This document shows positions 17,410-42,433 of a stretch of 64,000 nucleotides of DNA, piece by piece. Position numbers and translations under genes: made by a program. Below the pieces are notes generated by a model that made no database searches, had not been told where the DNA came from, and was given only the letters and a program-made list of their open reading frames with translations. The first letter of the stretch is position 1. Every line of letters starts with the position of its first letter. The stretch is from a bacterium. Its GTDB lineage: Bacteria > T1Sed10-126. The stretch lies in NCBI GenBank assembly GCA_003554945.1, contig PWHN01000057.1, positions 1 to 64,000 of the forward strand. The letters are read 5' to 3'.

Positions 17410-18258
17410 ATGCAAGAATTTGTCGCTGCCGCCGCTCAGATAGCAATTGAAGAGCCGGATAATTTTTCAGAAAATACCCGCAAGGTGGCCCGCTACCAGC
17501 GGCGCACCACCGACCGCTTTAACGCTCAACTTGTTGTCTACCCCGAATCAATAACAACCGGATTTACTCCCGGAGTAAAACCACCCGAACTTCACGACGT
17601 CCTCCCCCCGTCCATGGAAGAGGGTCTGGGGCCAGTCCTTGAAGCGACTCGAGAAACTAATAGCTACGCCGTTGTCTCCTCTTATGAGCCCGGCGAAGAT
17701 AAAAACACTGTCTACAACAGCGCCTTCCTCTGCGGTCCCGACGGCAAAATTGAAGGTCGGTACCGCAAAACTCACCTGTTTCCTACCGAACGGGTTGAAA
17801 ACAGTGGCTGGTCAACACCGGGCAAGGAAATTCCCGTTTTTGAGACTCGGCTTGGCAAAATTGGCATCATAATTTGTTACGACGGCGACTTCCCGGAACT
17901 CTCACGAATCCTCGCTTTGAAAGGCGCCGAAATAATTGTCCGGCCCGCCGCACTGCTGCGTAGTTTTGAAATCTGGGACATGAGCAATCGTATGCGGGCC
18001 TACGAAAATGACGTCTACTTCATCGGCGTAAACGCGATCGGCGAAGATGGTGCCGGAACTAAATTTTTCGGCCACAGCATGATTGTGTCTCCGGCTGGAC
18101 GACGTCTCCATCTGGCCAGAGCCGGTGAAGAAATTATTGCCGCAACAGTTAAACCACTAACAAAACACGAGGGAATTGAATCCAATTATCCCGTCCTGTT
18201 TGATCATCTCCAGGACCGTAATGTAGAAAGCTACCAGGATTACTTAACTGACCTGTGA
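17410..18258 (+). CDS. Nitrilase-family amidohydrolase
   Basis: Carbon-nitrogen hydrolase, 282 aa. The Glu-Lys-Cys triad is intact: Glu46 in VVYPES, Lys120 in GRYRKTHLF, and Cys156 in IIICYDGDFPE. The sequence looks most like branches acting on N-carbamoyl compounds or omega-amides rather than true nitriles. It is the first gene of the plus-strand catabolic cluster, 21 bases upstream of mdcA. In that setting it may release ammonia from an amide or ureido intermediate, which is an inference from context. Confidence 0.88.
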   Translation: MQEFVAAAAQIAIEEPDNFSENTRKVARYQRRTTDRFNAQLVVYPESITTGFTPGVKPPELHDVLPPSMEEGLGPVLEATRETNSYAVVSSYEPGEDKNTVYNSAFLCGPDGKIEGRYRKTHLFPTERVENSGWSTPGKEIPVFETRLGKIGIIICYDGDFPELSRILALKGAEIIVRPAALLRSFEIWDMSNRMRAYENDVYFIGVNAIGEDGAGTKFFGHSMIVSPAGRRLHLARAGEEIIAATVKPLTKHEGIESNYPVLFDHLQDRNVESYQDYLTDL

Positions 18259-18279
18259 AACCCAAACGGAGGGAATAAC

Positions 18280-19911
18280 ATGAGCTCTCACGATAAGCTG
18301 CTTGCCGATTACAGATTACGACGTGAAGCTGTTGCCCGTCAGCTCGACACTGAACTTTTCGTCAAACCAGAGCAAACAGTTGAACTGCTGGAAACTGCTA
18401 TCAAACCGGGCGACGTCGTCTGTCTTGAAGGCAACAACCAGAAACAGGCGGATTTTTTAGCTGAAGCACTGAGTAAAGTTAACCCGAAAGAAGTAAACAA
18501 CCTCCACATGGTTCAATCCTCGCTGGTCCTCGACGAACATGTTGAAGTTTTTGAAAAAGGTATCGCCAACCGGCTGGATTTTGCCTTCTCTGGACCCCAG
18601 GCGAAAAAGCTCTTCAAAGCAGTAAATAGCCAGCAGGTCAATGTGGGCGCCATTCACACCTACCTTGAGCTTTATGGCCGTTATTTTGTCGACCTCACGC
18701 CGCGGGTGGCCATGGTTGTCGCCGACGCCTGTGATCCATCAGGAAACCTTTACACCGGCGCTAATACCGAAGATACACCGCTGATAACTGAAGCCACTAA
18801 TTTTAAAAATGGACTTGTTATCGCCCAGGTGAGCGAGAAAAAAGATTCTCTTTCTCGGGTTGATATACCGGCCGACTGGGTGGATTACATAGTTGTCACT
18901 GAAGAACCCTACCATCACGAAGCGCTCTTCACCCGCGACCCCGCTCAGATTACCGACCTCCAGGTATTAACCGGAATGATGATAATCAAGGGGATTTATG
19001 AAGAATACAAAGTAAGCAAGTTAAACCATGGTCTGGGATTTGCCACTGCCGCTGTTGAATTACTTCTGCCCACTTACGGGCGTGAAATTGGACTTAGCGG
19101 CGAAGTCTGCTCGCACTGGGTTCTAAATCCCCACCCAACACTTATCCCGGCGATTGAGGAAGGGATCGCTCAAAAAGTTTATCCGTTTGGCGGCGAAATC
19201 GGGACTAACGAATACGTCCAGGCCCGACCCGACGTTTTCCCCACCGATAGTAACGGACTCATGCGTTCCGGCCGCTGCAACGCCCACGTTGCCGGCCTGT
19301 ATGGTATTGACTGCTTTACCGGCGCCACCCTGCAAATCGACAAATATGGTAACAGTTCCACCGCCATCGACGGCATGATCGCCGGCTTTGGAGGCGCCCC
19401 CAACCTTGGCTCAACTCCTCCCGGACGCCGGCATCAGACGGAAGCTTTCGCCAAAGCCGGCGCTGTTCATTACGACAACCACTACGGCAGGAAACTTGTC
19501 GTCCAGGTCACTCCTACCGTCAGCGAAAAGAAAAGCATACCCGTTTTCCGGGAAAAGTTAGACGCCTATGACCTCTATGAAGCCGGTCACTTCGAAGCTC
19601 CGCCTGTCATGATTGACGCTCAACAGATGACTCACATCGTCACTGAAAAAGGTATCGCCTACCTCGACCGCTGTAACTCCATGGAAGAACAGATGGCCGC
19701 TGTTCGCGCCGTCGCCGGCGACACCGAGGTGGGCGAACGTGAACGCACTGCTGAAACTGACCGGCTGCGCACAAAGGGAAAGGTTAAAACACCTGACGAC
19801 CTGGGTATAAATGTGGCTGATGCTACAACCGACAAACTTGCCGCACACAGTATTGAAGATCTGGTTGAAATTTCCAACGGCCTTTACAATCCACCGCAGT
19901 ATTTACTCTGA
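18280..19911 (+). CDS. mdcA: Malonate decarboxylase alpha-subunit-like CoA/ACP transferase
   Basis: 543 aa, the usual length of MdcA, which exchanges malonate with the acetyl group on the malonate decarboxylase acyl carrier protein; relatives act on free CoA. Strong family segments are VCLEGNNQKQADFL, GAIHTYLELYGRYFVDLTP, NTEDTPLITEA, LNPHPTLIPAIEEG, ARPDVF and SGFGGAPN-like AGFGGAPN. The C-terminus ends in YNPPQYLL as in the family. No mdcB, C, D or E genes are nearby, so it is an orphan and may be a malonate or similar acid:CoA transferase. GGAGGG stands before the ATG. Confidence 0.88.
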   Translation: MSSHDKLLADYRLRREAVARQLDTELFVKPEQTVELLETAIKPGDVVCLEGNNQKQADFLAEALSKVNPKEVNNLHMVQSSLVLDEHVEVFEKGIANRLDFAFSGPQAKKLFKAVNSQQVNVGAIHTYLELYGRYFVDLTPRVAMVVADACDPSGNLYTGANTEDTPLITEATNFKNGLVIAQVSEKKDSLSRVDIPADWVDYIVVTEEPYHHEALFTRDPAQITDLQVLTGMMIIKGIYEEYKVSKLNHGLGFATAAVELLLPTYGREIGLSGEVCSHWVLNPHPTLIPAIEEGIAQKVYPFGGEIGTNEYVQARPDVFPTDSNGLMRSGRCNAHVAGLYGIDCFTGATLQIDKYGNSSTAIDGMIAGFGGAPNLGSTPPGRRHQTEAFAKAGAVHYDNHYGRKLVVQVTPTVSEKKSIPVFREKLDAYDLYEAGHFEAPPVMIDAQQMTHIVTEKGIAYLDRCNSMEEQMAAVRAVAGDTEVGERERTAETDRLRTKGKVKTPDDLGINVADATTDKLAAHSIEDLVEISNGLYNPPQYLL

Positions 19912-20090
19912 CACTCAGAACCTATCGAAACATCTCCGTCCTTCACCCCTCTTTGTCTTTCACCCATTAAGGGAGAAAGATGCGTTGGAAGGTTCTGCTG
20001 ATACTCAAAAACCCTTGAAGCAGCAGCACAATCAAGATATATTTATTGTCAACAAACACCTATCAAGTCTTCTGGAAAGGTGATAATCCC
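19912..20090. other. Intergenic spacer with a decayed dispersed repeat
   Basis: Contains a copy of the CCCTTTGTCTTTC...AAGGG-type repeat (about 19955-19985: CACCCCTCTTTGTCTTTC then TTAAGGGAGAAAG). GGAAAGGTG just before 20091 is the ribosome-binding site of the next gene. Confidence 0.45.
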
Positions 20091-20906
20091 ATGCGCACCC
20101 CTTTTAACTATTTTGCTCCCGAGACCTTATCCGATGCCCATGAGCTGCTTGAAAAACATGGAGAACGGGCCGAAATTCTGGCCGGGGGGACCGATTTACT
20201 GGTTGATATCCGCAATGACATGAAACAACCCGACGCTGTTATTGATATAAAAAACATTGAAGAACTCAACGGTGTGGAGTTTGATTCCGACGACGGACTA
20301 ATAATAAATGCCGCCGCCACCTGCACCGAAGTTTCCAGCCACACTGTCGTCCGAGACCGGTATCCTTTCATAGTTGAGGCTACCTCGGAACTGGCCTCGC
20401 ACCAGGTCCGCAACCGGGCGACCGTTGTTGGCAATATATGCAACGCCTCACCCTGCGCTGACGCCGCACGGCCTTTACTCTGTCTCGACGCCTCAGTTGA
20501 AATCAGTTCGCTACAAAACAAGCGAACGCTACCACTTGAGGAGTTCATCACCGGCGTAAAACAAAACGACCTCGCCCCTGGCGAGCTGGTCGAACGGGTG
20601 CGCGTCCCCGTTGAAATGGCTGACGCCCGCGGCGCCAACCGTAAACTTAAACGTATCAAGGGACATGACCTTTCTCTGGCCAGCGTTACAATGGTTAAAA
20701 CAGATGCGGAAACACGAGTCTCAATTGGCGCCTGCGGTCCTACCCCGGTAGTGCTGACCGGTTTTGACGCCAGCACTGACGTTGACGAGCTTTGCAGTGC
20801 AGCCGAAGAGGCTATTTCACCAATCGACGACGTTCGCTCTACCGCCGAATACCGAAACTTCATGATTAAACAGTATATCCGAGAACTCGACGAAGAGTTG
20901 AGCTAA
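20091..20906 (+). CDS. Molybdenum hydroxylase FAD-binding subunit (xanthine dehydrogenase family)
   Basis: FAD subunit, 271 aa, that passes electrons from the Fe-S subunit to an acceptor. The FAD motifs ILAGGTDLLVDIRN and VVGNICNASPCADAARPL are present, and PFNYFAPETLSDAHELL is a typical N-terminus. I chose ATG 20091 because GGAAAGG lies just upstream; a frame from 20046 is longer but unsupported. It is followed by the 2Fe-2S and molybdopterin subunits in the common order. The substrate cannot be inferred from this subunit. Confidence 0.93.
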   Translation: MRTPFNYFAPETLSDAHELLEKHGERAEILAGGTDLLVDIRNDMKQPDAVIDIKNIEELNGVEFDSDDGLIINAAATCTEVSSHTVVRDRYPFIVEATSELASHQVRNRATVVGNICNASPCADAARPLLCLDASVEISSLQNKRTLPLEEFITGVKQNDLAPGELVERVRVPVEMADARGANRKLKRIKGHDLSLASVTMVKTDAETRVSIGACGPTPVVLTGFDASTDVDELCSAAEEAISPIDDVRSTAEYRNFMIKQYIRELDEELS

Positions 20907-20940
20907 CTCGTAATTTTACAATTCTCCACGGGAGGTTATT

Positions 20941-21426
20941 ATGCAAATAAATTTAACCATCAACGGTAATGAATATAGCCGTGAGGTCGATGAACACAGA
21001 AATCTGCTTCACTTTCTCCGCGAAGACCTCGGGCTGACCGGCACAAAAGAAGGGTGTGGCGCCGGAGAATGTGGCGCCTGCACAGTAATTATGGACGGCG
21101 AGCCGGTAAATTCCTGTCTTGTCCTGGCCGCCGAAGCCGACGGCTCTGAAATTGAAACTATCGAAGGCGAAGCAAGTGAAGGTGAGTTATCTGACTTACA
21201 GCAGGCCCTGCACGAACATCACGCCGTGCAGTGCGGCTTCTGCACTCCCGGAATGATTATGTCTCTCAAAGACCTGCTCCGCCGTAACTCAACCCCCGGT
21301 GAAAATGAAATTAGACAGGCGATTGAAGGTAACCTCTGCCGCTGCACCGGTTACGAACAAATAATCGAAGCAGTCCTCGATTTAACAGGCCAACTCGATG
21401 AAAGAGAGGAGTTAAAGTATGCGTGA
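20941..21426 (+). CDS. Molybdenum hydroxylase 2Fe-2S subunit
   Basis: Small iron-sulfur subunit, 161 aa, with all eight cluster cysteines. C39, C44, C47 and C59 form the plant-ferredoxin-like cluster (GCGAGECGACT). C98, C101, C133 and C135 form the second cluster (QCGFCTPGM and CRCTGY). GGGAGG precedes the ATG. The 3' end overlaps the large subunit by 8 bases. Confidence 0.96.
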   Translation: MQINLTINGNEYSREVDEHRNLLHFLREDLGLTGTKEGCGAGECGACTVIMDGEPVNSCLVLAAEADGSEIETIEGEASEGELSDLQQALHEHHAVQCGFCTPGMIMSLKDLLRRNSTPGENEIRQAIEGNLCRCTGYEQIIEAVLDLTGQLDEREELKYA

Positions 21427-23812
21427 AGACACTCCCCAGGAAGAACTTAACTACGTTGGTAAAGGAACTGAACGAGTTGATACAACTGAAAAATTAACTG
21501 GAAAGGCCAAATACACCGGCGATTTGCGCATGCCCGGCATGCTCCACGCCGCCGTCAAACGCAGTCCTCATGCTCGCGCAAAAATTAATAACATCGACAC
21601 CTCCGACGCTGAAGCCATCCCCGGTGTCCACGCCGTTGTAACCGGAAAAGAATTTGATTACAAACTCGGTCTCTACCTGGTCGATAAGGATGTTCTCGCC
21701 CGGGAACGTGTCCGCCACCACGGTGAGGCAGTTGCTGCCGTCGCCGCAGAATCTCCCGGTTTGGCCGAGCAAGCAGTGAAAAAAATTGACGTTGATTACG
21801 AAGTTGAAGAACCTGTTCTTGACGCCCTCGAAGCTATTGAGGATGACGACAAGCTTGTTCACCCCGAACTGGACGACTACGATTACTTTGAGCCCGCCTT
21901 CTCCCCTCAACCCGGCACTAACGTCGCCAACCACACTAAGATCCGTAAAGGCGACGTAGAACAAGGTTTTGAAGAGGCTGACCACGTAATTGAACGGGAA
22001 TACACTAATCCCAACGTCCAGCACGTACCGATGGAAACACACGTCGCCGTGGCAAGCTGGAAGGAACAGGATGAGCTTGATGTCCATACATCATGTCAGT
22101 CCCCCTTCACCGTCCGCAATCTTCTCTGCGTCGCTTTTGACCTGCCCCATACAAATGTTCATGTAGAAGTTCCTTACGTTGGTGGCGGGTTTGGTGGTAA
22201 AGCGGGAATTGGTGTCGAACCTCTGGCCGCCTGTCTGTCTAAAAAAGCTAATGGCCGGCCGGTAAAACTGGAAGCCAGCCGCGAGGAAGAGTTCAGTCTA
22301 CTTCCCTGCCGCAGCGGACTAACCTACCGGATTAAATCCGGTGTTACCGAAGACGGTGACCTCGTGGCCCAAAAAATGACAATGTTCTGGGACTCCGGCG
22401 CTTACGCCGATTATGCCGTTAATGTCACACGGGCATCGGCTTACTCGGCTTCCGGCCCCTACGAAATTCCCAACGCCCACGTCGATGCTTATACGATTTA
22501 CACAAATAAACCCTACGGCACTGCTTACCGTGGTTTCGGACACGTTGAGTTCTCCTGGGGTCTTGAACGACACATGGACTTACTTGCTGAAACTATTGAT
22601 ATGGATCCACTTGAATTTAGAAAACAAAACGCTCTCAAACCCGGTTCCATTACGATTACCGGCGAGAAGATAGTGGAAAACACCGGCAATGTAACTAAGT
22701 GCATGGAAGTGGCCGCTGAGGCCATAAATTATGGCGAACTCACGCCTGAAGAAAAAAAGCGACAGGAAGAGACGGGAATGAAGATCGCCAAATCCGTCTC
22801 CGCTCTGCACAAGGCGCCGGCTATGCCCTCCTTCACTGCAACCGCCGCCGAACTGCGCATGAACGAAGATGGCTCTATAAATGCCGATCTATCTCTAACG
22901 GAATACGGACAGGGAACTTACACCGCCCTCACCCAGATTATTGCTGAGGAACTGGGCTTCCCGCCGGAGCGTATCAACCTGAGCATTAAAGGGGATACGG
23001 ACAAGGCGCCCTACGACTGGCAGACAGTCGCTTCCAAGGGCCTGCTGATGTCCGGTAACGCCTGCATTAAGGCTGCGCGCGATCTGCTTGAGAAGGCCTA
23101 CCAGGACGCCTCTGAAGTCCTACGCGCCGACCCCTGTGACCTCGACCATAACGAAAACGAAATTTACATTAAACATCACCCCGAAGAATCCGTAACTTTC
23201 TCAGAACTTGCTGTTGGGTATGCTTATCCAACCGGCGAAGGTATCGGCGGCCCGATTATCGGTGTCGGACGCTACATGGCCCAGGGGTTGACCAATCTTG
23301 ATAAAGAGACCGGCCAGGGTGAGCCGGCCCTGGACTGGACTTACGGCTCCCACGGCGTTGTCGTTGAAGTCAACGAAATAACCGGTGAGTTTAACATCCT
23401 TAAAGTCGCCTCCGCTTTTGACGTTGGAAAAGCTATTAACCCCGCCAATATCCGCGGCCAGGTGATCGGTGGACTGATCCAGGGGTTAGGAACAACCATC
23501 TGCGAAGGTTACGCTTACGACGACGAAGGACACCTGCTTAACCCCTCCTTTACCGACAACAAAATTCCCACTTCTATGGACGTCCCCGAGGAAATTGAAG
23601 GTATAGTAATTGAAACGCCTCAAATAGACGGCCCCTACGGGGCTCGCGGCGTCGGCGAACACCCCATGATTGCTCTCTGCGGCGCTATCGGCAACGCAAT
23701 TTACTACGCCGCCGGTGCCGACCTGACCCACATGCCCATTCGCTCCGAGGACGTCTGGTGGGCCCTGCATAAGGACGAGGACCGCGATCGACCAAGATAT
23801 TCGATCTGCTGA
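21419..23812 (+). CDS. Molybdenum hydroxylase large (molybdopterin-binding) subunit
   Basis: 797 aa, the catalytic subunit of the xanthine dehydrogenase/CO dehydrogenase large-subunit family; it hydroxylates an aromatic N-heterocycle or aldehyde with water as oxygen source. Key segments are the N-terminal hammerhead domain (KLTGKAKYTGDLRMPGMLHA), GGGFGGKAG, the AYRGFG motif, and near the C-terminus GARGVGEHP with the catalytic Glu of the GVGE motif. AYRGFG lacks the Cys-containing loop of CO dehydrogenases. The substrate is unknown; context favours a purine or pyrimidine. The molybdopterin insertion genes are not in the window. Confidence 0.94.
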   Translation: MREDTPQEELNYVGKGTERVDTTEKLTGKAKYTGDLRMPGMLHAAVKRSPHARAKINNIDTSDAEAIPGVHAVVTGKEFDYKLGLYLVDKDVLARERVRHHGEAVAAVAAESPGLAEQAVKKIDVDYEVEEPVLDALEAIEDDDKLVHPELDDYDYFEPAFSPQPGTNVANHTKIRKGDVEQGFEEADHVIEREYTNPNVQHVPMETHVAVASWKEQDELDVHTSCQSPFTVRNLLCVAFDLPHTNVHVEVPYVGGGFGGKAGIGVEPLAACLSKKANGRPVKLEASREEEFSLLPCRSGLTYRIKSGVTEDGDLVAQKMTMFWDSGAYADYAVNVTRASAYSASGPYEIPNAHVDAYTIYTNKPYGTAYRGFGHVEFSWGLERHMDLLAETIDMDPLEFRKQNALKPGSITITGEKIVENTGNVTKCMEVAAEAINYGELTPEEKKRQEETGMKIAKSVSALHKAPAMPSFTATAAELRMNEDGSINADLSLTEYGQGTYTALTQIIAEELGFPPERINLSIKGDTDKAPYDWQTVASKGLLMSGNACIKAARDLLEKAYQDASEVLRADPCDLDHNENEIYIKHHPEESVTFSELAVGYAYPTGEGIGGPIIGVGRYMAQGLTNLDKETGQGEPALDWTYGSHGVVVEVNEITGEFNILKVASAFDVGKAINPANIRGQVIGGLIQGLGTTICEGYAYDDEGHLLNPSFTDNKIPTSMDVPEEIEGIVIETPQIDGPYGARGVGEHPMIALCGAIGNAIYYAAGADLTHMPIRSEDVWWALHKDEDRDRPRYSIC

Positions 23813-23864
23813 CGATTTCGTCTTAAATACTCGCAGCGACTTCTTACTCAAGGACACATCACCT

Positions 23865-24617
23865 CTGTGGGGACGTGTCTCTGCCCTCTTCGAAAACTCC
23901 TTCGATATTCTTTTGGATGATTACCTGGTAAATATCAACTCCGCTCGTCCCGCCCTACATCCGCTGGGAATACTGAGCCCCGCTTCACTTATTTCTGAAG
24001 TCCGCACTGACCAGACGGCTACACTTGAGCCCAACCAGCTTCAAATTGGGTCGCGACAATTCCAGCTTCAGACCCATTTCGAGCCACCACCTCCTCCTGC
24101 AGCAAATGAATTAAAAAATATTGATCTCTCCCCCCTGCGCAAATGTCTCAAAATCCAGGTTAATAAAAGCCGACACAGCTCTTGCCTCTTGACAAACGAT
24201 TTTGACTCTCCGCCTGAAATTATTTCCCGCGCCGGACGCGCTTTAGTCGCACAGCTGAATGAAAAACAGGTTGATTTTAACCGGCTGTTAAATTACTTTG
24301 GCGACGGTGAGGGACTTACCCCTTCTTTTGACGACATCTGCGCTGGAATGCTCTTCGTTGACCGACGGCTAAACTGCAGCAATGTTAAGCTGCCCGGCGA
24401 CCTTTTCGAACGGCTAAAAAACAAAACTACCCTGACCAGCCGCTGGCAACTTGAGTTTGCTCGGCGGGGGAAGCTCAGTCTGGCTTTCGAACAGCTATTT
24501 AACCGGCTGATAGAGGGAAAAGTAGCAATTAAAGACTGCTTCTCAGCCTGTCGCTGCGGTCATACTTCGGGTGCAGACATATTAACCGGAATTTATCTTT
24601 ATTTTGAAAATTTCTAA
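23865..24617 (+). CDS. DUF2877 / AllH-like subunit of an oxamate-type carbamoyltransferase
   Basis: DUF2877 protein, the family of E. coli YlbF/AllH, which works with AllF and AllG as oxamate carbamoyltransferase. Visible features are GLTPSFDDICAGML (the family's G-L-T-P-S-x-D-D core), FARRGKLSLAF and the C-terminal CGHTSGADILTGIYLYF. The first ATG/TTG-type start in frame is TTG 23913, but that drops the conserved WGRVSALFENSFDILL segment. The frame is open further upstream, and a CTG at 23865 has AAGGA nine bases before it, so I start there. About 250 aa. It follows the large molybdenum subunit by 52 bases. Confidence 0.8.
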   Translation: MWGRVSALFENSFDILLDDYLVNINSARPALHPLGILSPASLISEVRTDQTATLEPNQLQIGSRQFQLQTHFEPPPPPAANELKNIDLSPLRKCLKIQVNKSRHSSCLLTNDFDSPPEIISRAGRALVAQLNEKQVDFNRLLNYFGDGEGLTPSFDDICAGMLFVDRRLNCSNVKLPGDLFERLKNKTTLTSRWQLEFARRGKLSLAFEQLFNRLIEGKVAIKDCFSACRCGHTSGADILTGIYLYFENF

Positions 24618-24645
24618 CCACTCAACACTGTTCACCCAACATATA

Positions 24646-24717
24646 GTTAAATGCAAAGTTTGACCGTTTTATACCTTCCTGATCAACATAATCTGTGCCT
24701 CAAACTATGCATATAAC
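24646..24717. repeat. Imperfect inverted repeat
   Basis: Arms at 24646-24663 and 24700-24717 match at 16 of 18 positions (GTTAAATGCAAAGTTTGA against its complement). It lies just downstream of the DUF2877 gene and could be a weak terminator or part of a mobile repeat. The rest of 24618-25060 holds no supported gene. Confidence 0.5.
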
Positions 24718-25069
24718 TTAACCAACCGCGAGTTGCCTTCAAAACCACCTTTTTAACACCATATTACTCTCCCCTAACTACGCCCACGTCCGTTCAACCC
24801 CTTTAACGCACTCTTTTTAGACAGCCTTTTCCCTGCACAAAGCCTGAAAAACCCAATTTTTCCTGGTTTTTACAAAATTGAATTGGTAACTGTTTAGCGC
24901 CTATCGTCATATTTCGTTTAGTTCGTCATTTCGACCCCAGAGCTGGAAAACACCAGCTTAAAGCTCAAAGCTAATTCAAATCCATTAAGTGCTCATAATC
25001 TTGTTCTTTAACTTGAGTTTGGTTTTGGTCTTTCGCCTCTTCGCCCCGTCGCCCGCTCGCCTCTTCGAG

Positions 25070-25274
25070 CATTCCGGCCTCCGAGCCGGAATCCAGAGGC
25101 GTTGAGCTTTTGATTGTCATTCCTGCGGAAGCGGGAATCCAGCGGCGTTGAATTTGAATTAAGAAAAAGTCAATGTCAAAGTCACTGGATTGTCCGGTCA
25201 AGCCGGACAATGACGACCAATAGATCAAGCCCGTTCTTGAATTTGACGTCATTCCGGCCTCCGAGCCGGAATCC
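25070..25274. repeat. Cluster of GTCATTCC...GGAATCC palindromic repeats
   Basis: Four related dyads lie close together: 25070-25094 (ATTCCGGC/GCCGGAAT), 25116-25140 (ATTCCTGC/GCGGGAAT), 25187-25214 (ATTGTCCGG/CCGGACAAT) and 25248-25274 (ATTCCGGC/GCCGGAAT). Each is flanked by GTCATT or its complement. They resemble the ATTCCC-N8-GGGAAT dRS3-type repeats of Neisseria in design. Confidence 0.75.
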
Positions 25275-25287
25275 ATCTTGAAGAGCA

Positions 25288-25365
25288 GTAATCGGTAATC
25301 GGTAATCAGTGTTCAGTGAAGTCAAAACCGATTACCGAATACCGAACACCGTTTACTGAACTTCT
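25288..25365. repeat. Degenerate heptamer repeats in inverted orientation
   Basis: Heptamer-like units (CGGTAAT repeated, then CAGTGTT, CAGTGAA) occupy about 25288-25320. A complementary run (ACCGATT, ACCGAAT, ACCGAAC) follows at about 25328-25360. The same CGGTAAT/CGGTAGT/CGGTGAT units recur near 29231-29265. No gene overlaps them. Confidence 0.55.
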
Positions 25366-25531
25366 TGCAGGTCAAGTCCTGGGACGTTATTCGTTCCCGC
25401 AATGACGGCCGATAGAGCATACCCGTAACGGCGGCGGTGGCGCCAAATAAATACGCAAATTGCTATCAATCGAATAAAAACAAATATTGTTCTGTTATAT
25501 TCAATGAATAGATAAACGACCACACTAACTA

Positions 25532-25581
25532 CACCCCCTCAGAAAAAATTTCCTCCTTGAAGGGGGGAAAGACAAAGGGAG
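25532..25581. repeat. CCCTT/AAGGGG dispersed repeat copy
   Basis: CTCCTTGAAGGGGGGAAAG and the following GACAAAGGGAG match a repeat seen again near 26837, 33907 and 57994. It lies just before the longest reading frame of the recombinase gene. Confidence 0.55.
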
Positions 25582-25634
25582 ATGAAATATAGCCCTCGCA
25601 CGCAAGGGAAAAGGCAACTTTTTAGAAAGTCTCT

Positions 25635-25662
25635 AACTACGTCAAAGTATTTTGACGTAGTT
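25635..25662. promoter_or_regulatory. Perfect 12-bp dyad just before a recombinase start codon
   Basis: AACTACGTCAAA, a 4-base spacer GTAT, and TTTGACGTAGTT form a perfect inverted repeat that ends on the base before ATG 25663. It could be an operator for the recombinase, its attachment or binding site, or an mRNA hairpin that limits translation. Confidence 0.5.
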
Positions 25663-26667
25663 ATGGATAAATTCCACGCTGATGGGTGGTCTATCATGCA
25701 AAAAACATTGGAGGTAAGTGGCGGCTCCATGCCGACGGCACATCTGCTGGCGGAGGATTTTCAACGCATGTTGACGGAAAACGACTACAGTCAGAGCACC
25801 TGCTCCACTTACCTCCGCTTCGTCGAACCCTTCCTCAAAGAAAATCCTCATCCCGCAGAAATGGACCGTTATGACGTCGGACGGTACATCCTCAAGTGGC
25901 GCAATCAGCTCAGCAATAACTCGATGAAACTGGCCACCAGCGCCCTGATTAAATTTTACAAATACCTTAAGTTTTACCACGGTTTCCGACGGGCCGACGC
26001 AGTTATCGATCACATCCAGGATTTGAAGGGAGAATTTTTTCGCACCCCCTCTTTTCAACCGGACCCGATGAGCGAGGATGAATTAAGTACCCTCTTCCAG
26101 TACACCCTGGGGGCAAATCCCCGTCAGGTTAGGCGCCGAAATATCATTACTATACTGCTGGGCACCGGTCTGCGCGTCTCCGAATTCTGTGCCGTGCGCC
26201 GCGATCAGGTTGCGATCCACGAACCCGGCGTCCAGTCACATATTTTTGTTCCCGGGGGAAAAACAGCTTCGGCCCGGCGCAAAATTCCTCTCCACCGCGA
26301 CTTCCCCTACTCCAACTCCTGGATACTCGGCGAACGAGTCGTCGAAGCATTCGACAGCTATGAAAAAGTCCGACCCGTTCCTCGAACTGAGGAAACAGAA
26401 AATTTCTGGTTTATCTCCGAACGGGGCCAGCCCATCTCCAAACGTTCCGTCCAGGCAATGTTTACCCGTCTCTGTGAAAAATCAGGGCTGCAGAAAAAAA
26501 GGGCGGAAGCTGATGAAAACTCACTGTCGGTTCACAATCTACGTCACACTTTTGCCACTCAACTGGCCATGCAGGGAGCTAACGCCTACCAGATCAAGGC
26601 TATCCTCGGCCACGCTTCAGTCAGCACCTCCCAGGCCTACATCCGACTGCTCGATCGCGTCGGCTAA
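25663..26667 (+). CDS. Tyrosine recombinase / integrase
   Basis: Phage-integrase family recombinase, 334 aa from ATG 25663. The catalytic set is complete: Arg171 in GTGLRVSE, His291 and Arg294 in HNLRHTFAT, His317 in LGHASVSTS, and Tyr326 in QAYIR. The core-binding domain (about residues 32-110) starts AEDFQRMLTENDYSQST. The frame opens at 25582 inside a repeat copy, and ATGs at 25696 and 25729 are alternatives (GGAGG precedes the last). It sits inside the catabolic cluster among dispersed repeats, unlike the Xer gene at 261-1184, so it may move or rearrange those repeats. Confidence 0.88.
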   Translation: MDKFHADGWSIMQKTLEVSGGSMPTAHLLAEDFQRMLTENDYSQSTCSTYLRFVEPFLKENPHPAEMDRYDVGRYILKWRNQLSNNSMKLATSALIKFYKYLKFYHGFRRADAVIDHIQDLKGEFFRTPSFQPDPMSEDELSTLFQYTLGANPRQVRRRNIITILLGTGLRVSEFCAVRRDQVAIHEPGVQSHIFVPGGKTASARRKIPLHRDFPYSNSWILGERVVEAFDSYEKVRPVPRTEETENFWFISERGQPISKRSVQAMFTRLCEKSGLQKKRAEADENSLSVHNLRHTFATQLAMQGANAYQIKAILGHASVSTSQAYIRLLDRVG

Positions 26668-26803
26668 AAAACAGTCGTTACTCACTCCAAATAGCTTACC
26701 TGACCGACCGGGGATAACTAACGCCGGTCCAACCCTACGTTTTTATTTAGTTTATCAGCAATTTTCGATACACTTGTAGAAATAAGAAACTCACTCAAAA
26801 CCA

Positions 26804-26965
26804 CTCAACGTCACCCCGGACAGGTGACCCCGGAATCCCCCCTTTCTTTTTCCCCCCTTGAAGGGGGGAAAGACAAAGGGGGGTGAAGAAAATGGATTGC
26901 GGAGCGGGGTCCGCAATGACGAGCAATAGGTCACTATCTGAAAAGTTATTCGTTCCCGACAATGA
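26804..26965. repeat. Composite dispersed repeats
   Basis: In order: a GTCACCCCGG...GACCCCGGAATCC copy (26804-26837), the CCCCCCTTGAAGGGGGGAAAG unit (about 26837-26884), a GGATTGCGG...CCGCAATGAC dyad (26894-26920), and a decayed TTATTCGTTCCCGACAATGAC end (about 26945-26965). The middle two recur in the same order at 57994-58069. There is no gene in 26668-27014; the RBS of fdrA lies at its end. Confidence 0.65.
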
Positions 26966-27014
26966 CAAAAACATTGGAAGATTTTAAACCCCACAACAGA
27001 GGAGTGTAAAAACT

Positions 27015-28541
27015 ATGGAAGTAATCACTAAAATCAAGCAGGACACCTATTACGACTCAGTGACACTGATGCTGGTCAGCAGCGAAATTGAAAAAATGGA
27101 AGCTGTTGAAGAAGCGATGATCGGCATGGGAACGGATTACAACATCGAGAGCCTTCAACGGCTGGATATGTTTGGCACAGAGCACGAGGACGCAACACCG
27201 AATGACCTGATTCTCACCGTAAAAGCAGCCGACGCCAAAGCGGGCGAAAAAGCTATTGAAACGGCAGAAGAAAAGCTGAAAGAAAAATCTCAATCCAGCG
27301 GTGGCGTAAGCGCCTACAACCCTCCGACCCAGGAGAGAGCCGCCGACATGCTCCCCGGGGCCAACATGGTCTTAATTTCTGTGCCGGGTGAGCACGCAGC
27401 CAAAGAGGCCCACGAAGCACTGGACAACGACCGGCACGTCATGCTGTTTTCGGACAACGTAAGCCTGGATGAAGAACTGGAACTGAAAGAAAAAGCGGTG
27501 AAAAAAGGACTGCTTATGATGGGGCCCGACTGCGGGACCTCAATTATCAACGGCGTGCCACTCGCCTTCGCCAACGCCGTTCGCGGGGGTAATATTGGAC
27601 TGGTCGCCGCCTCGGGCACCGGCCTGCAGGAGACTACGAGCATAATTCATCAGCTTGGTGGCGGTATCAGTCAGGCTATCGGTGTCGGCGGACGCGACCT
27701 CTCTGCCCAAATTGAAGGGCGAATGACGCTACTGGCCGCCAGGGCCCTCGATCGCGACGACAATACCGATGTTATCACCCTGATTTCTAAACCACCCGAC
27801 GAGACAATCCTCGCACCTCTGCTAAAGGAGCTTAATTCACTCAGTAAACCGGTAGTCATTTATTTTATTGGTGCCGATCAGGCAAAAATTGAAGCGGAAG
27901 GATTCACCGCCGCCGGCGACCTGGAGAACGCTGCCGTACAATCCTGCCGGCTCGCTGGTGTTGATGCTGCCGACTCACTAATAAACCAGGCGGAAATTGA
28001 ACAAAAAGCGGCCAAAATACAGCTTTCCGGTCCTTATCTACGTGGTCTCTATTCCGGCGGCACTCTCTGCGATGAAGCCCAGCGAATCCTCCACGATCGG
28101 CTGGATGAAATTTACTCGAACACACCCGTTGAAGGTTGTCACGAACTCGAAGACCTCTATCAAAGCAAAGCGCACACAATCATCGACCTCGGCGAGGACG
28201 AGTTCACCCAGGGACGCGCTCACCCCATGATCGATCCTACACTGCGTAAAGAAAGAATTGTTCAAGAAATGCAAGACCCTGAAGTGGGGATAATACTGTT
28301 GGACGTCGTCCTCGGCTATGGCGCTCATCCGGACATGGCCGGTGCCCTCGTCGAAGCTATAGAAGAGGGTAAATCCGCCGCGGACAGTCCACCGCTGGTT
28401 GCCGCTTCTATCTGTGGAACCGACCAGGACCCGCAAAATTACGAACAGCAGAAAAATACCCTCGAAGAGGCTGGGGTTTATGTTTTCCCATCTAACGTCT
28501 CCATGGTAAAATTTGCATATCAGTTGTTTGAAACGACATAA
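27015..28541 (+). CDS. fdrA: FdrA / AllF-like subunit of an oxamate-type carbamoyltransferase
   Basis: 508-aa FdrA protein, related to succinyl-CoA synthetase alpha subunits by its N-terminal Rossmann part and GPDCGTSIINGVPLAF motif. E. coli FdrA is AllF of oxamate carbamoyltransferase, which makes carbamoyl phosphate and oxamate from oxalurate and phosphate. Other family segments are LVAASGTGLQETTSII, GGRDLSAQIEGRMTLLA, LYSGGTLCDEAQ and MIDPTLRKERI. GAGGAG precedes the ATG. AllH-like and AllG-like genes lie on either side in the same direction, though repeats separate them. The natural substrate here is not known. Confidence 0.92.
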   Translation: MEVITKIKQDTYYDSVTLMLVSSEIEKMEAVEEAMIGMGTDYNIESLQRLDMFGTEHEDATPNDLILTVKAADAKAGEKAIETAEEKLKEKSQSSGGVSAYNPPTQERAADMLPGANMVLISVPGEHAAKEAHEALDNDRHVMLFSDNVSLDEELELKEKAVKKGLLMMGPDCGTSIINGVPLAFANAVRGGNIGLVAASGTGLQETTSIIHQLGGGISQAIGVGGRDLSAQIEGRMTLLAARALDRDDNTDVITLISKPPDETILAPLLKELNSLSKPVVIYFIGADQAKIEAEGFTAAGDLENAAVQSCRLAGVDAADSLINQAEIEQKAAKIQLSGPYLRGLYSGGTLCDEAQRILHDRLDEIYSNTPVEGCHELEDLYQSKAHTIIDLGEDEFTQGRAHPMIDPTLRKERIVQEMQDPEVGIILLDVVLGYGAHPDMAGALVEAIEEGKSAADSPPLVAASICGTDQDPQNYEQQKNTLEEAGVYVFPSNVSMVKFAYQLFETT

Positions 28542-28547
28542 CTAAAC

Positions 28548-28928
28548 GCAAAAACGCCAAGAAATCGATTTGGAGGATGACATCAAAAACTATAACAACT
28601 TTAAGATCAAGAGCGAAAAACACTAAGTCGCAAAGACGCTAAGGAAGACAATTAATTATGGACGAGAATTATTTGAGTAATCAAATAATCAATGCTGCTA
28701 TTGAGGTTCATCAATGGCTCGGTGGACCTGGTTTGTTGGAGTCTGTGTACGAAAAATCTTTAGCAAAAGAGTTACGGGATCGTAACTTTAAAATTCAACA
28801 ACAAGTCAGCTTCCCTATTGAATATAAAGAGGAAGAACTTAATGAAAAATTCAGATAAGAAGGTATCCATCGAGTGGTTAACAATTTGTAATTAAAAACT
28901 TTGCGGCTTTGCGCCTTCGCGTTTTTGC
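28548..28928. repeat. Inverted-repeat-bounded module carrying a GxxExxY remnant
   Basis: GCAAAAACGCCAAG at 28548-28561 is matched (13 of 14) by its complement at 28915-28928. Inside, CAAAGACGCTAAGG (near 28632) and CTTTGCGGCTTTGCGCC (near 28899) form a second layer. Such arms around GxxExxY genes suggest a small non-autonomous mobile unit. It separates fdrA from the 57-aa gene. Confidence 0.55.
28658..28891 (+). pseudogene. GxxExxY-family gene with an internal deletion
   Basis: The first 65 codons match the N-terminus of GxxExxY proteins (HQWLGGPGLLESVYEKSLAKEL), a PDDEXK-like family of about 125 aa. The frame then stops at 28856. Directly after, in another frame, 28862-28891 reads GIHRVVNNL and a stop, the usual C-terminus of the family. 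The middle, including the catalytic strand, is missing with a frameshift at the join. This is a remnant, not a working gene. GGAAG precedes the ATG. Confidence 0.75.
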
Positions 28929-28969
28929 TTTTTTTCACTATGTCATTAACCTATAACAGGGTGATTTTT

Positions 28970-29143
28970 ATGAAGCCAATTGACTCGCTTTTTAACGAAG
29001 AAGTTAAAGTGATTAACCTGGGGATTCCCGCTTTTCGCGACGACCTTGACGAGCAGGGCGTGGAAGTGGTTCACGTCGACTGGAGTCCTCCGGCCGGCGG
29101 CAACAAAAAAATGCAGTCACTGCTCAACCAGCTCAAGGGGTGA
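28970..29143 (+). CDS. Small FdrA/AllG-associated protein
   Basis: 57 aa from ATG 28970, preceded by GGGTG. The sequence has a compact pattern (KVINLGIPAFRDDL, GVEVVHVDWSPPAGGNKK) that I recall as a segment fused to FdrA- or DUF1116-type proteins in other bacteria; here it stands alone between fdrA and the DUF1116 gene. That recollection needs a search. The longer frame from 28901 starts inside the repeat arm and is unlikely. It probably belongs to the carbamoyltransferase complex. Confidence 0.7.
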   Translation: MKPIDSLFNEEVKVINLGIPAFRDDLDEQGVEVVHVDWSPPAGGNKKMQSLLNQLKG

Positions 29144-29192
29144 CTATTAAAAATCATTTGAGCTTATTAGGATTATCTCAAAATTTTTCCTC

Positions 29193-29409
29193 GTCATTCC
29201 CGCGGAAGCGGGAATCAAGTTGAAGTTCAGTAACCGGTAATCGGTAGTCGGTGATCGGTAACTTCGGTAGTTCAACATCAAAGTCACTGGATTACCCGGT
29301 CGAGCCTTGGGGCGTTATTCGTTCCGGGCAATGACGTTCGGTAATGCTGAATTACGGGTCGGACCCCACAATGATGAGCGTAAGGTCTTGACTGTCATTC
29401 CCGCGGAAG
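29193..29409. repeat. GTCATTCCCGCGGAAGCGGGAATCC repeat pair with heptamers between
   Basis: Nearly identical copies lie at 29193-29216 and 29385-29409, each with an ATTCCCGC/GCGGGAAT dyad. Between them are CGGTAAT-type heptamers (about 29231-29265) and decayed copies ending in CAATGACG. There is no gene in 29144-29701. Confidence 0.75.
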
Positions 29410-29496
29410 CGGGAATCCAGCGACGTTGAACTTATGATGGTTAAGAAGCATCCGCTTTTGATATTATGATGTTAACCCGCAACACACAACACGATG

Positions 29497-29686
29497 TTAC
29501 TTTCACACTTTTTCACTTTTTAACTTTTTAACTTTGCAACTTTATAACTTTCACACTTTTAAACTTTGTAACTTTCACACTTTTAAACTTTGTAACTTTC
29601 ACACTTTTAAACTTTGTAACTTTCACACTTTTAAACTTTGTAACTTTCACACTTTTTAACTTTCACACTTTTTAACTTTCACACTC
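29497..29686. repeat. Octamer-based tandem array ending at a Shine-Dalgarno site
   Basis: An irregular opening of AACTTT units is followed by four exact 24-base copies from 29552 to 29647, each made of the octamers CACACTTT, TAAACTTT and GTAACTTT. Two 16-base units (CACACTTTTTAACTTT) then run to 29679. The last unit, CACACTCTAAGGAGG, merges into the Shine-Dalgarno site of the DUF1116 gene. The strand is almost free of G. Confidence 0.9.
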
Positions 29687-29701
29687 TAAGGAGGAAATAA
29701 A

Positions 29702-30949
29702 ATGAACGTTGACATAGAAAAAGCTAATCAGAAGGTAATCGATAAAATCCAGGCTGGTAATCCGGTACTTAAAGGTATTGGAACGGTTGGTGAAAATGTC
29801 CCGGAAGTTCACAAAAAAATGATACTTCACGCCGGCCCGCCAGTGGAATGGGAAGACATGAGTGGCCCCACCAGGGGAGCTGTAATTGGCGGTTTAATCT
29901 ACGAGGGGCTTGCCAAAGACGAGGACGAGGCGCGGGCGCTCGCCGCATCCGGTGAAATAGAGTTTGACCCCTGGCACGAACATAGTGGTGTTGGGCCGAT
30001 GGCCGGCGTCGCCACTGTCAGCATGCCGGTCTGGATTGTGGAAAATACGACTGAAGGCGGGCAAGCCTACTGCACATTCAACGAAGGGCTTGGCAAGGTC
30101 TTACGTTACGGTGCCTACGCGCCTGATGTGATTGACCATCTTAAGTGGATGGAAAATGAGCTGGCTCCAGTTTTAACTGAAACGCTGGCCCAGCTTGATA
30201 ATGAAATAAACCTGAAGAGTATTATCGCTGAAGCTCTTGAGATGGGAGATGAGGTTCACAACCGCAACCGGGCGGCCACTTCACTCTTCTACCGCCGCAT
30301 CACTCCGGCTCTTTTGGAAACCGATTTCAACGTTGATAAAAAGAAAAAGGTCCTGGAATTTATTGACTCTAACGATCATTTCTTTTTAAATCTCAGCATG
30401 CCGGCGGCCAAATCAATGATCCAGGTCGCCGAGGGAATTGAAGGCTCCTCTATCCTGACAGTTTTAGCACGAAACGGTACTGAAACGGGAATAAAAATAG
30501 CCGGACTGGGTGACCAGTGGTTCACCGCCAAAGCGCCGGTTCCCGAGGGCCTGCTCTTCTCCGGTTACGATAAAGACGACGCCTGTGCCGATATTGGCGA
30601 CAGCACGATCACTGAAACTGTCGGTCTTGGTGCCTTTTCCATGGCTGCCTCACCGGCAATTGTTAAATTTGTCGGCGGCAGCGTCGAGGACGCTTTCAAC
30701 TTCACCCGTAAAATGTATGAAATCTGTGAAGACGAGTCCGAAAACTTCAAGGTGGCCACGCTGGACTTTCGCGGCGCACCGACCGGAGTCAACTTGCTAA
30801 AAGTCTGTGAGCTTGATATCACGCCCCAGATTAATACCGGTATAGCCCACAAGGAGCCGGGCATAGGACAAATTGGGGCCGGACTTGTTCAGGCACCAAT
30901 GAAGTGTTTCGAACAGGCGCTGGAGGCGTTCGCCGCCAAATACGCATAA
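29702..30949 (+). CDS. DUF1116 / AllG-like subunit of an oxamate-type carbamoyltransferase
   Basis: 415-aa DUF1116 protein, the family of E. coli YlbE/AllG. Typical segments are LHAGPPVEWEDMSGPTRGA, FDPWHEHSGVGPMAGV, GDEVHNRNRAATSLFYR, FFLNLSMPAAKS and GAPTGVNLLKVCE near the C-terminus. Its partners are FdrA (27015-28541) and the DUF2877 protein (23865-24617). AAGGAGG lies seven bases before the ATG and is the end of the octamer array. A carbamate kinase, the usual next step, is not in the window. Confidence 0.93.
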   Translation: MNVDIEKANQKVIDKIQAGNPVLKGIGTVGENVPEVHKKMILHAGPPVEWEDMSGPTRGAVIGGLIYEGLAKDEDEARALAASGEIEFDPWHEHSGVGPMAGVATVSMPVWIVENTTEGGQAYCTFNEGLGKVLRYGAYAPDVIDHLKWMENELAPVLTETLAQLDNEINLKSIIAEALEMGDEVHNRNRAATSLFYRRITPALLETDFNVDKKKKVLEFIDSNDHFFLNLSMPAAKSMIQVAEGIEGSSILTVLARNGTETGIKIAGLGDQWFTAKAPVPEGLLFSGYDKDDACADIGDSTITETVGLGAFSMAASPAIVKFVGGSVEDAFNFTRKMYEICEDESENFKVATLDFRGAPTGVNLLKVCELDITPQINTGIAHKEPGIGQIGAGLVQAPMKCFEQALEAFAAKYA

Positions 30950-30954
30950 CTAAA

Positions 30955-31015
30955 ACTTTCACACTTTGTAACTTTCAAACTTTCACACTTTGTAACTTTC
31001 AAACTTTCACACTCT
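30955..31015. repeat. Second octamer array ending at a Shine-Dalgarno site
   Basis: Two exact 24-base units (30961-30984 and 30985-31008), built of ACACTTTG, TAACTTTC and AAACTTTC, are followed by ACACTCTAAGGAGGA and the ATG of the cyclase gene at 31030. The junction CACACTCTAAGGAGG is identical to that of the first array. Confidence 0.9.
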
Positions 31016-31029
31016 AAGGAGGAGTCACA

Positions 31030-31809
31030 ATGGTAAAACTTTATGATTTAACACAAGATCTGAGCATTCACACCCCCCCCTGGCCCAGTTACATGCCCCT
31101 GCAACTGCAGTATTTTAAACGTATTTCAGGTGCCCACATGGGACAGGGAGCCAACGGTCAGATCGTCAAGACGAGTATGCACGTCGGCACACACATAGAC
31201 GGCGAGAAACACTTTGACGCCAAGGGACGGACGATAGGCGAAGTCCCGCTTGAGGAATTTTGCGGGGAGGGAGTAGTCGTTGACATCTCTGATGATGTTG
31301 AAGATTTTTCTCTTTACTCACCCGAGATGCTGGAATCAAAGGCCGACATTCGTGAAGGAGACATTCTAATAATTAACACCGGCTACCACAGATACGCCTG
31401 GGACCAGCCCGAGAGCGACGAGCTGCGCTACATGGTCAAACACCCGGGCCCAAACCCTGACTTTCACAAGTGGGCCCTGGAGATGGATTTCAAGTGGATT
31501 GGCGTCGACTGCGGTAGTGCCGACCATCCGATGAACACTATCCTTCGTGACTGGCACCCCGGTCTGTTCGAAAAAGCCGAGGCAAAACTTAAAGAAGACT
31601 ACGGCAAGAGCTGGGACGAGATGTTCCCCTACGAGGAATACTACCAGGTCATGCACCTTGATCTATTTCCAGAGGGCCTGATCCACGCCGAAAACCTCGG
31701 CGGCGAAATTAACGAGCTCAACAACCAGCGCTCCTGGATTGGGCTTTTCCCCTGGAAAGGTATCGAAATGGAGTCCTCAATCTGCCGCATTGCTGCTTTT
31801 GAGTTTTAA
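31030..31809 (+). CDS. Cyclase-family metal-dependent hydrolase
   Basis: 259 aa, of the family that includes kynurenine formamidase and isatin hydrolase. The metal motif HxGTHxD is present as HVGTHIDGEKHF (about residues 57-68). Other conserved parts are ILIINTGYHRYAW and GVDCGSADHP. Members open cyclic or aryl amides. As the last gene of the catabolic cluster it could open the ring made by the molybdenum hydroxylase, which is inference. AAGGAGG at the end of the octamer array is its RBS, and a terminator follows at 31930. Confidence 0.88.
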   Translation: MVKLYDLTQDLSIHTPPWPSYMPLQLQYFKRISGAHMGQGANGQIVKTSMHVGTHIDGEKHFDAKGRTIGEVPLEEFCGEGVVVDISDDVEDFSLYSPEMLESKADIREGDILIINTGYHRYAWDQPESDELRYMVKHPGPNPDFHKWALEMDFKWIGVDCGSADHPMNTILRDWHPGLFEKAEAKLKEDYGKSWDEMFPYEEYYQVMHLDLFPEGLIHAENLGGEINELNNQRSWIGLFPWKGIEMESSICRIAAFEF

Positions 31810-41628: not shown

Positions 41629-41635
41629 CTTATTT

Positions 41636-42049
41636 CTACTCCCCCTTGAAAGTAACTAATTTGTCTTCTTCTTCGACGCTCTCGCCTTCGTTTACGTAAA
41701 CCTGATCTACAGTCCCAGCTTGAGGGGCAGGAATGACCGTTTCCAGTTTCATCGCCTCCAGCTTTACCAGATCGTCACCGGATTTTACACTATCTCCCAC
41801 ATTGACCATGACCTCCAATACCTTGCCCGAAAGCGGTGACAAAACTTCTCCTCCCTCAGCGACATTTGGCTCGCTCGCATCCTGGGCAACCGTCCCGCCC
41901 CCGGTTTGCTCACCTGAGCCCGATCCGGCTCCCTTGAGAAGCTTAAATCTCCAGCTTTTTTCGCCGATTCGTGCTTCGTAACCGTCACCGGCCCAATCAA
42001 CTTCTATCTCAATTTTTTCGCCGTCTCGCTCAAATTCATATTTTGCCAT
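41636..42049 (-). CDS. mmdC: Biotin carrier subunit of the Na+ pump
   Basis: 137 aa. A C-terminal biotinyl domain (about residues 66-136) carries the biotin Lys in EAMKLETV, after a Gly/Ser-rich hinge. AGGA precedes the ATG. It moves the carboxyl group from MmdA to MmdB. Confidence 0.93.
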   Translation of the reverse strand: MAKYEFERDGEKIEIEVDWAGDGYEARIGEKSWRFKLLKGAGSGSGEQTGGGTVAQDASEPNVAEGGEVLSPLSGKVLEVMVNVGDSVKSGDDLVKLEAMKLETVIPAPQAGTVDQVYVNEGESVEEEDKLVTFKGE

Positions 42050-42082
42050 TCTATCAGTCCTGTTTCATCACCTACCGAAGCA

Positions 42083-42110
42083 TATCCCCTCTCCCGGAAG
42101 AGCGGGGGAA
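42083..42110. repeat. CCCTCTCCC...GCGGGGGAA repeat fragment
   Basis: A short copy of the pyrimidine-rich dyad repeat seen elsewhere in the window lies in the spacer between mmdD and mmdC. Confidence 0.4.
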
Positions 42111-42148
42111 GTAATTTTCGGAAAACTTCGCTAGATTGTGATCTTGTT

Positions 42149-42433
42149 TTACTTTAAATTTTTAGATCCTTTATTTAATCGCTCGCCCAGTTTAAGCTGA
42201 CGGCGATGGTGTTCAACCGCCGCTGCAGCAAGCAGAGAGTCATCAGCTTCCTCGGCTTCTTTTTCTTCTTCCGATTCTTTAGCTGGTTCTTTTTCAACTG
42301 TACCGGTAACCGCCGGAAAAAGCACACGCAAAATTAATACAGTAAATACTAACAACAAGAGGGAGGCGGCCACAACGCTAATTCCCACAACTGATACCAG
42401 CAGAGCCGTATTGAAAATTGTCCAATCAACCAC
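42149..42433 (-). CDS. mmdD: OadG-type small subunit of the Na+ pump
   Basis: 94 aa. One N-terminal membrane helix (about residues 9-40) is followed by an acidic stretch (EKEPAKESEEEKEAEEADD) and a basic tail that should contact the carboxyltransferase. It assembles the complex. The start is GTG, a few bases after the mmdA stop. Confidence 0.88.
   Translation of the reverse strand: MVDWTIFNTALLVSVVGISVVAASLLLLVFTVLILRVLFPAVTGTVEKEPAKESEEEKEAEEADDSLLAAAAVEHHRRQLKLGERLNKGSKNLK

Follow-up and report, generated by a model that had tools for sequence, protein, structure and literature searches.

What compound is broken down by an AllFGH-type carbamoyltransferase whose genes stand beside those of a molybdenum (Mo) hydroxylase and a cyclase-family metallohydrolase? 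The question is raised by a plus-strand gene cluster at positions 17410-31809 of a stretch of 64,000 nucleotides (nt) of contig PWHN01000057.1, which comes from a bacterium of the GTDB lineage Bacteria; T1Sed10-126; this whole stretch is called the window below. The E. coli enzyme converts oxalurate to oxamate and carbamoyl phosphate, and back (PMC11326118). In the window a complete set of the AllF, AllG and AllH subunits is accompanied by the two enzymes just named, by a nitrilase-superfamily amidase and by a malonate transferase of the MdcA type. We consider it probable, at about 70%, that these genes specify an anaerobic route of oxidative pyrimidine breakdown, which conserves energy and leads from uracil to malonate and on to acetyl-coenzyme A (acetyl-CoA). 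Our doubts concern chiefly which pyrimidine is used and what the cyclase and the AllFGH set do biochemically.

Domains were assigned with Pfam, and equivalogs were compared with NCBIfam models and their cut-offs. The nitrilase, MdcA, the three Mo hydroxylase subunits, AllH, AllF, AllG and the cyclase, all named in the initial annotation, were recovered by these models as open frames on the plus strand, each where it had been placed. An open reading frame (ORF) of 57 amino acids at 28970-29143, absent from that annotation, was identified as the split-off C-terminal domain of AllF. The features of the cluster are as follows.

17410..18258, plus strand: nitrilase-superfamily amidase, proposed malonamate amidase (PF00795, CN_hydrolase, 1e-45)
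18280..19911, plus strand: MdcA-type malonate transferase, proposed acetyl-CoA:malonate CoA-transferase (PF16957, Mal_decarbox_Al, 752 bits)
20046..20906, plus strand: Mo hydroxylase, medium subunit, binding flavin adenine dinucleotide (FAD) (PF00941, 5e-51); the real start may be an internal ATG
20941..21426, plus strand: Mo hydroxylase, small [2Fe-2S] subunit (PF01799, PF00111)
21419..23812, plus strand: Mo hydroxylase, large Mo-binding subunit, proposed uracil C6 hydroxylase (PF02738, PF20256)
23913..24617, plus strand: AllH (DUF2877) subunit (PF11392, 9e-16; TTG start as listed)
25582..26667, plus strand: tyrosine recombinase, inserted, with repeats on its flanks (PF00589, 3.5e-28)
27015..28541, plus strand: AllF (FdrA) subunit (PRK06091, 511 bits, above the cut-off of 433)
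28970..29143, plus strand: stand-alone small C-terminal domain of AllF, 57 amino acids (49% identity to residues 509-555 of E. coli AllF, 8e-13)
29702..30949, plus strand: AllG (DUF1116) subunit (PF06545, 312 bits; related to the solved structure 3clq)
31030..31809, plus strand: cyclase-family metallohydrolase, proposed barbiturate ring-opening hydrolase (PF04199, 6e-33)

In the proposed pathway, the three-subunit Mo hydroxylase would use water to oxidize uracil, perhaps thymine too, to barbiturate, whose ring would be opened by the cyclase-family metallohydrolase to give ureidomalonate. AllFGH with its split-off small subunit would cleave ureidomalonate with phosphate into carbamoyl phosphate and malonamate; carbamate kinase, encoded elsewhere in the genome of the window and within the cluster in relatives, would turn the former into adenosine triphosphate (ATP), CO2 and ammonia, and the nitrilase would deamidate the latter to malonate. 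MdcA, or a CaiB-type CoA-transferase in several relatives, would then swap malonate for the acetyl group of acetyl-CoA, and the malonyl-CoA so formed would be decarboxylated to acetyl-CoA by a biotin-dependent Na+ pump. By our own arithmetic, the net reaction would be uracil + 4 H2O → acetate + 2 CO2 + 2 NH3 + 2[H], with a yield of one ATP and a Na+ gradient. Ureidomalonate, the expected product of barbiturate opening, is homologous to oxalurate, the substrate of E. coli AllFGH, and longer by one carbon; thus the proposed chain follows from known chemistry. We infer every substrate, and the order of the steps, from gene content, co-occurrence, family identities and kept active-site residues.

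Recurrence of the gene set

We searched for AllG in over 800 genomes and examined the neighbourhoods of 86 AllG loci. The same cyclase was found in 58 of them, distributed over six phyla by the grouping used (that of the window and those of the genomes G050, G014, G013, G025 and G052); a search for the gene set in other genomes had been proposed as a check in the initial annotation. Associations were counted by tblastn, independently of gene calling, in the 58 cyclase-carrying and the 28 cyclase-less AllG loci; the p-values are optimistic, because related genomes are not independent. The Mo hydroxylase accompanies 45/58 cyclase loci as compared with 5/28 cyclase-less ones (p 2.7e-7), the nitrilase 17/58 as compared with 0/28 (p 9e-4), a permease of the UraA clade 17/58 as compared with 1/28 (p 0.005), the Na+ pump 10/58 as compared with 0/28 (p 0.03), and a GNAT-like protein 28/58 as compared with 1/28 (p 2e-5). 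Carbamate kinase is linked in 15 of the cyclase loci, and genome-wide its strong matches occur in 38/39 genomes with AllG and in 5/23 without it (Fisher p 3e-10), the single exception being a genome that is 75% complete. Carbamate kinase, permease and Mo-cofactor genes, whose presence nearby had been proposed as a check, were all found near the cluster in relatives.

The opposite pattern was observed for the genes of allantoin breakdown: allantoinase or allantoate amidohydrolase (AllC) lies near none of the 58 cyclase loci, as compared with 6 of the 28 cyclase-less ones (p 8e-4). The initial annotation had set its inference of a route from uracil to malonate against purine or allantoin catabolism, for which conserved neighbours of the latter kind would speak; instead of them, the cyclase loci repeatedly carry UraA-clade permeases, carbamate kinase, CoA-transferases and Na+ pumps. 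These neighbourhoods, together with the malonate decarboxylase operons described below, support the uracil-to-malonate inference over that rival.

The closest named relative, Fuchsiella alkaliacetigena, has the gene order AllH-AllF-small ORF-AllG-CaiB-cyclase-nitrilase. In the sister genome, the one other genome examined from the phylum of the window, the nitrilase, MdcA and Mo genes are found on one contig, behind upstream genes that also occur in the window, and AllF, the small ORF, AllG and the cyclase on another. Since the sister keeps these gene groups and the set recurs in other phyla, the adjacency of the genes is not due to chance. In the relatives, the small C-terminal ORF of AllF is a gene of its own in 25 loci, and in 46 it is joined to AllG at the N-terminus of the latter. 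The AllG tree does not split into one clade linked to the cyclase and one to allantoin (a label of cyclase plus Mo hydroxylase needs 16 changes on it, as compared with a mean of 25.4 after shuffling), and AllG phylogeny is therefore weaker evidence than gene context.

Some loci depart from the usual form. An apparent fusion of AllG to the cyclase in L200 was rejected as a spurious overlapping reading frame, both genes being separate and present. A fused double cyclase adjoins AllG in L097 (7751-9388), L094 (7443-9080) and L098 (6763-8400); it comprises 545 amino acids (the sequence was read for L097), its first half is devoid of the conserved metal motif, and a single cyclase is encoded separately in L097 and L098 as well. 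The cluster in L091, L102 and L190 is divergent: besides AllG it has a cyclase that shares only about 30% identity with that of the window. In L091 and L102 it also includes ABC transporter genes, a Mo hydroxylase of another kind and an amidohydrolase resembling guanine deaminase. This cluster looks like a separate purine-type pathway that uses AllG.

A proposed route from the pyrimidine ring to malonate

The NCS2 permeases linked to the cyclase loci fall mostly in the UraA/RutG clade, and one of them, in L160, passes the cut-off of the NCBI model for uracil permease (651 vs 477 bits) and shares 62% identity with E. coli UraA. The large subunit of the Mo hydroxylase carries the signature GG[GA]FGGKAG in 41 of 43 cyclase-linked members, including that of the window. 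They have Ala at the substrate-binding GGFGxKx position, which is occupied by Gln in E. coli XdhA and XdhD and by Glu in another Mo enzyme of the set; the acidic or amide residue expected of a xanthine dehydrogenase at this position is thus absent from the window enzyme. Its scores with the xanthine dehydrogenase equivalog models are all below the cut-offs (XdhA 506 vs 780, XdhB 157 vs 310, XdhC 193 vs 217 bits). The literature searched yielded no Mo gene for the oxidation of uracil.

The cyclase keeps the metal motif HxGTHxD...H that is characteristic of kynurenine formamidase and isatin hydrolase, and a search of solved structures with this protein returned only distant relatives, namely kynurenine formamidases and isatin hydrolase. 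An AlphaFold2 model built from a two-sequence alignment had a mean predicted local distance difference test (pLDDT) score of 38 and was discarded. No AtzD-like barbiturase was found among the cluster proteins, and no genome-wide search for one was made.

In the structure of Pseudomonas MdcA, malonate is held by Arg341, Asn292 and Gln345, over Phe312 and near Asn59, Tyr134 and Gly381; Asn258 and Arg228 have been implicated too (PMC5534430). In the alignment, 8 of these 9 residues are kept in the window protein (N59, Y134, R228, N258, N292, F312, R341 and G381). Among the 80 genomes searched, genuine MdcA turned up in just four, each of which carries the cyclase and AllG; in these four, i.e. the window, its sister and two relatives designated G598 and G619, it lies beside the nitrilase and Mo genes or the cluster itself. 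In G598 and G619 the cluster is followed by one peptidase gene and then by the genes for an OAD_beta Na+ pump subunit, a biotin carrier, MdcA, an acyl carrier protein (ACP), MdcD and MdcE. MdcA (884 bits) and MdcD score above the equivalog cut-offs and MdcE just below (221 vs 237); the gene group is a malonate decarboxylase operon. Since it adjoins the cluster in two relatives, the end product is likely to be malonate, and oxalate is disfavoured.

The nitrilase keeps its catalytic E, K and C in the motifs PE(S/T), YRKTH and CYDGD. The cysteine is followed by an RP(A/S)xxLR motif, which is also kept in the linked homologues and is compatible with a carboxylate-bearing substrate. MdcA is replaced by a CaiB CoA-transferase in Fuchsiella and nine other loci; CaiB or MdcA was found in 13 cyclase loci, where it accompanies the nitrilase in 11/13 and never the GNAT-like protein. 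The nitrilase and the GNAT-like protein are themselves mutually exclusive among the 58 cyclase loci (17 vs 28, with an overlap of 0 where 8.2 would be expected, P 6e-7).

For the last step, a complete four-gene Na+ pump is available on the minus strand at 40510-44019, about 9 kb downstream of the cluster, from which it is separated by malic enzyme and fumarase genes.

42448..44019, minus strand: carboxyltransferase of a methylmalonyl-CoA decarboxylase-type Na+ pump, proposed malonyl-CoA decarboxylase (TIGR01117, 775 bits, below the cut-off of 999)
42149..42433, minus strand: small membrane-anchored subunit of the pump, an ORF amid the pump genes, assigned by position and composition
41636..42049, minus strand: biotin carrier of the pump (EAMKLE biotinylation motif)
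40510..41628, minus strand: beta subunit of the Na+-translocating decarboxylase (PF03977, 9e-149; TIGR01109, 466 bits, above the cut-off of 191)

Alternative substrates and known pathways

Several observations weigh against a route from uracil to malonate. The window itself has neither a permease nor a carbamate kinase. Among the 28 permease-bearing cyclase loci, 11 have another NCS2 clade, nearer to XanQ/UacT, so that a base other than uracil may be imported in some cases. The cyclase belongs to a family different from that of the known barbiturases, and we know of no barbiturase of the cyclase family. The window MdcA scores 736 bits with TIGR01110, just below the equivalog cut-off of 789, and has His in place of Q345 in the malonate pocket. 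In the genome of the window, which is 93.5% complete and was covered, as in all our genome-wide statements, by family searches, the malonate-decarboxylase ACP (PF06857, MdcC) was not found, and it is present in G598 and G619; MdcA of the window would therefore act as a CoA-transferase, probably using CoA together with a separate pump of the methylmalonyl-CoA decarboxylase type. The best NCBI model for the CaiB homologue is CoA:oxalate CoA-transferase, at 392 bits (cut-off 522). Finally, about half of the cyclase loci (28) are devoid of both nitrilase and CoA-transferase and have the GNAT-like protein instead, which the pathway leaves unexplained. This protein, encoded for example at 11751-12473 of L010, at 13778-14515 of L012 and in 26 other cyclase loci, is often found beside a thiolase and a DUF35 protein; it is probably an alternative means of handling the C3 product, and our guess, by analogy of fold, is that it might decarboxylate a malonyl compound.

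Part of this evidence would suit purine, allantoin or hydantoin catabolism via oxalurate, in which the cyclase would form oxalurate, AllFGH would yield oxamate and carbamoyl phosphate, the nitrilase would release oxalate and CaiB would produce oxalyl-CoA. Oxalurate is the substrate of the E. coli enzyme (PMC11326118), some linked permeases are nearer to XanQ/UacT, and the match of CaiB to the oxalate model is the main sequence-based support for such a route. We nevertheless regard it as quite unlikely, given that allantoinase and allantoate amidohydrolase are missing from the surroundings of all 58 cyclase loci, UraA-clade permeases outnumber the others, MdcA and the malonate decarboxylase operon indicate malonate, and the Mo enzyme has Ala where the E. 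coli enzymes XdhA and XdhD have Gln and the other Mo enzyme Glu. The same chemistry might also serve a different or broader range of pyrimidines, with thymine converted via 5-methylbarbiturate to methylmalonate, or with a modified uracil as substrate, so that the pump would take methylmalonyl-CoA. Uracil/thymine dehydrogenase acts as an enzyme class on both bases, and the best match of the window pump is a methylmalonyl-CoA decarboxylase model. Both the pocket of MdcA and the malonate decarboxylase operons found next to the cluster, on the other hand, favour unsubstituted malonate, and one linked permease is a uracil permease above the cut-off, which leaves this variant improbable, if somewhat less so than the oxalurate route. 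It is very improbable that the cluster is a chance mosaic, in which an enzyme of the xanthine dehydrogenase type came to lie beside an unrelated amide or carbamoyl pathway: the recombinase and repeats do break up the cluster in the window, and the Fuchsiella locus is without Mo genes, but in dozens of loci from different phyla the GG[GA]FGGKAG Mo hydroxylase adjoins the set of cyclase and AllG.

The proposed pathway from uracil to malonate can be compared with systems already described. With the AllFGH/AllK allantoin pathway of E. coli (PMC11326118) it shares three homologous subunits, a predicted phosphorolysis of an acyl-urea and a carbamate kinase in the genome. It differs in that allantoinase, allantoate amidohydrolase and ureidoglycolate genes are absent from the window cluster, which has a cyclase, Mo hydroxylase, nitrilase and MdcA, and in that the C-terminal domain of AllF is a separate ORF; nor does E. 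coli AllG belong to the sets in which the cyclase-linked AllGs are found. The window MdcA resembles that of malonate decarboxylase Mdc/Mad (PMC5534430) in fold and in most malonate-pocket residues, and a biotin carrier and Na+ pump lie nearby, as in the Na+-dependent type, the ACP being the difference. Xanthine dehydrogenase XdhABC and the Mo hydroxylase are alike in subunit layout and fold, and unlike in the Ala of the GG[GA]FGGKAG signature and in the XdhA model score given above. The oxidative pyrimidine pathway of actinobacteria comprises uracil/thymine dehydrogenase, barbiturase and ureidomalonase, and barbiturate, ureidomalonate and malonate are the intermediates proposed here as well; ring opening by a cyclase-family enzyme, cleavage of ureidomalonate by phosphate, by which energy would be kept, the malonamate and nitrilase steps and the malonyl-CoA Na+ pump would be different. 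To our knowledge, oxidative pyrimidine breakdown has been described as aerobic and purely hydrolytic, with no energy yield in the ring-cleaving steps.

We lean towards the view that these loci represent a widespread, undescribed uracil fermentation in anaerobes, combining oxidation by a Mo enzyme, a cyclase-family barbiturase, an AllFGH-type ureidomalonate carbamoyltransferase that supplies carbamoyl phosphate and hence ATP, and a malonyl-CoA Na+ pump. No published description of a uracil-to-malonate route was found in the open-licence literature searched, and the novelty is therefore provisional. If the proposal is correct, anaerobes in several phyla can live on uracil, with the ureido group yielding one ATP and malonyl-CoA a Na+ gradient, and functions would be provided for four poorly assigned groups, namely a subfamily of Mo hydroxylases, one of cyclases, the non-allantoin AllFGH sets and a subfamily of nitrilases. 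It would also call for caution in labelling every AllFGH set as allantoin or purine genes. In a recent survey of nitrifiers, AllFGH genes were assigned to oxalurate degradation (PMC12625717), and in a study of sediments, adjacent carbamoyltransferase and allantoinase genes in Atribacteria were interpreted as a sign of allantoin use (PMC6469976).

Integrity of the locus and the rest of the genome

The pathway genes are all intact despite the recombinase and repeats that lie among them. Between AllH and AllF, the tyrosine recombinase is flanked by 38-nt direct repeats at 25549-25586 and 26850-26887, and further repeats and a short unrelated ORF are found between AllF and AllG; the cluster is therefore not one tight operon here. 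The recombinase is probably outside the pathway. A tandem repeat of 8/16 bp at 29495-29693 stops just upstream of the AllG start codon, and palindrome-like dispersed repeats also occur between 24900 and 29700, an invasion that spares the genes themselves. Searches of the window for tRNAs and Rfam families returned nothing.

The genome of the window has one NCS2 permease (G000:C117), which is distant from the cluster, belongs to the UraA/RutG clade and scores 364 bits with the uracil permease model (cut-off 477). Its carbamate kinase (G000:C100, 388 bits, above the cut-off) is likewise distant from the cluster. This gene (locus L193) stands beside three genes for YgeW-like transcarbamylases and one for a YgeX-like ammonia-lyase, an arrangement that is kept in L195 of the sister genome and that possibly represents another pathway yielding carbamoyl phosphate.

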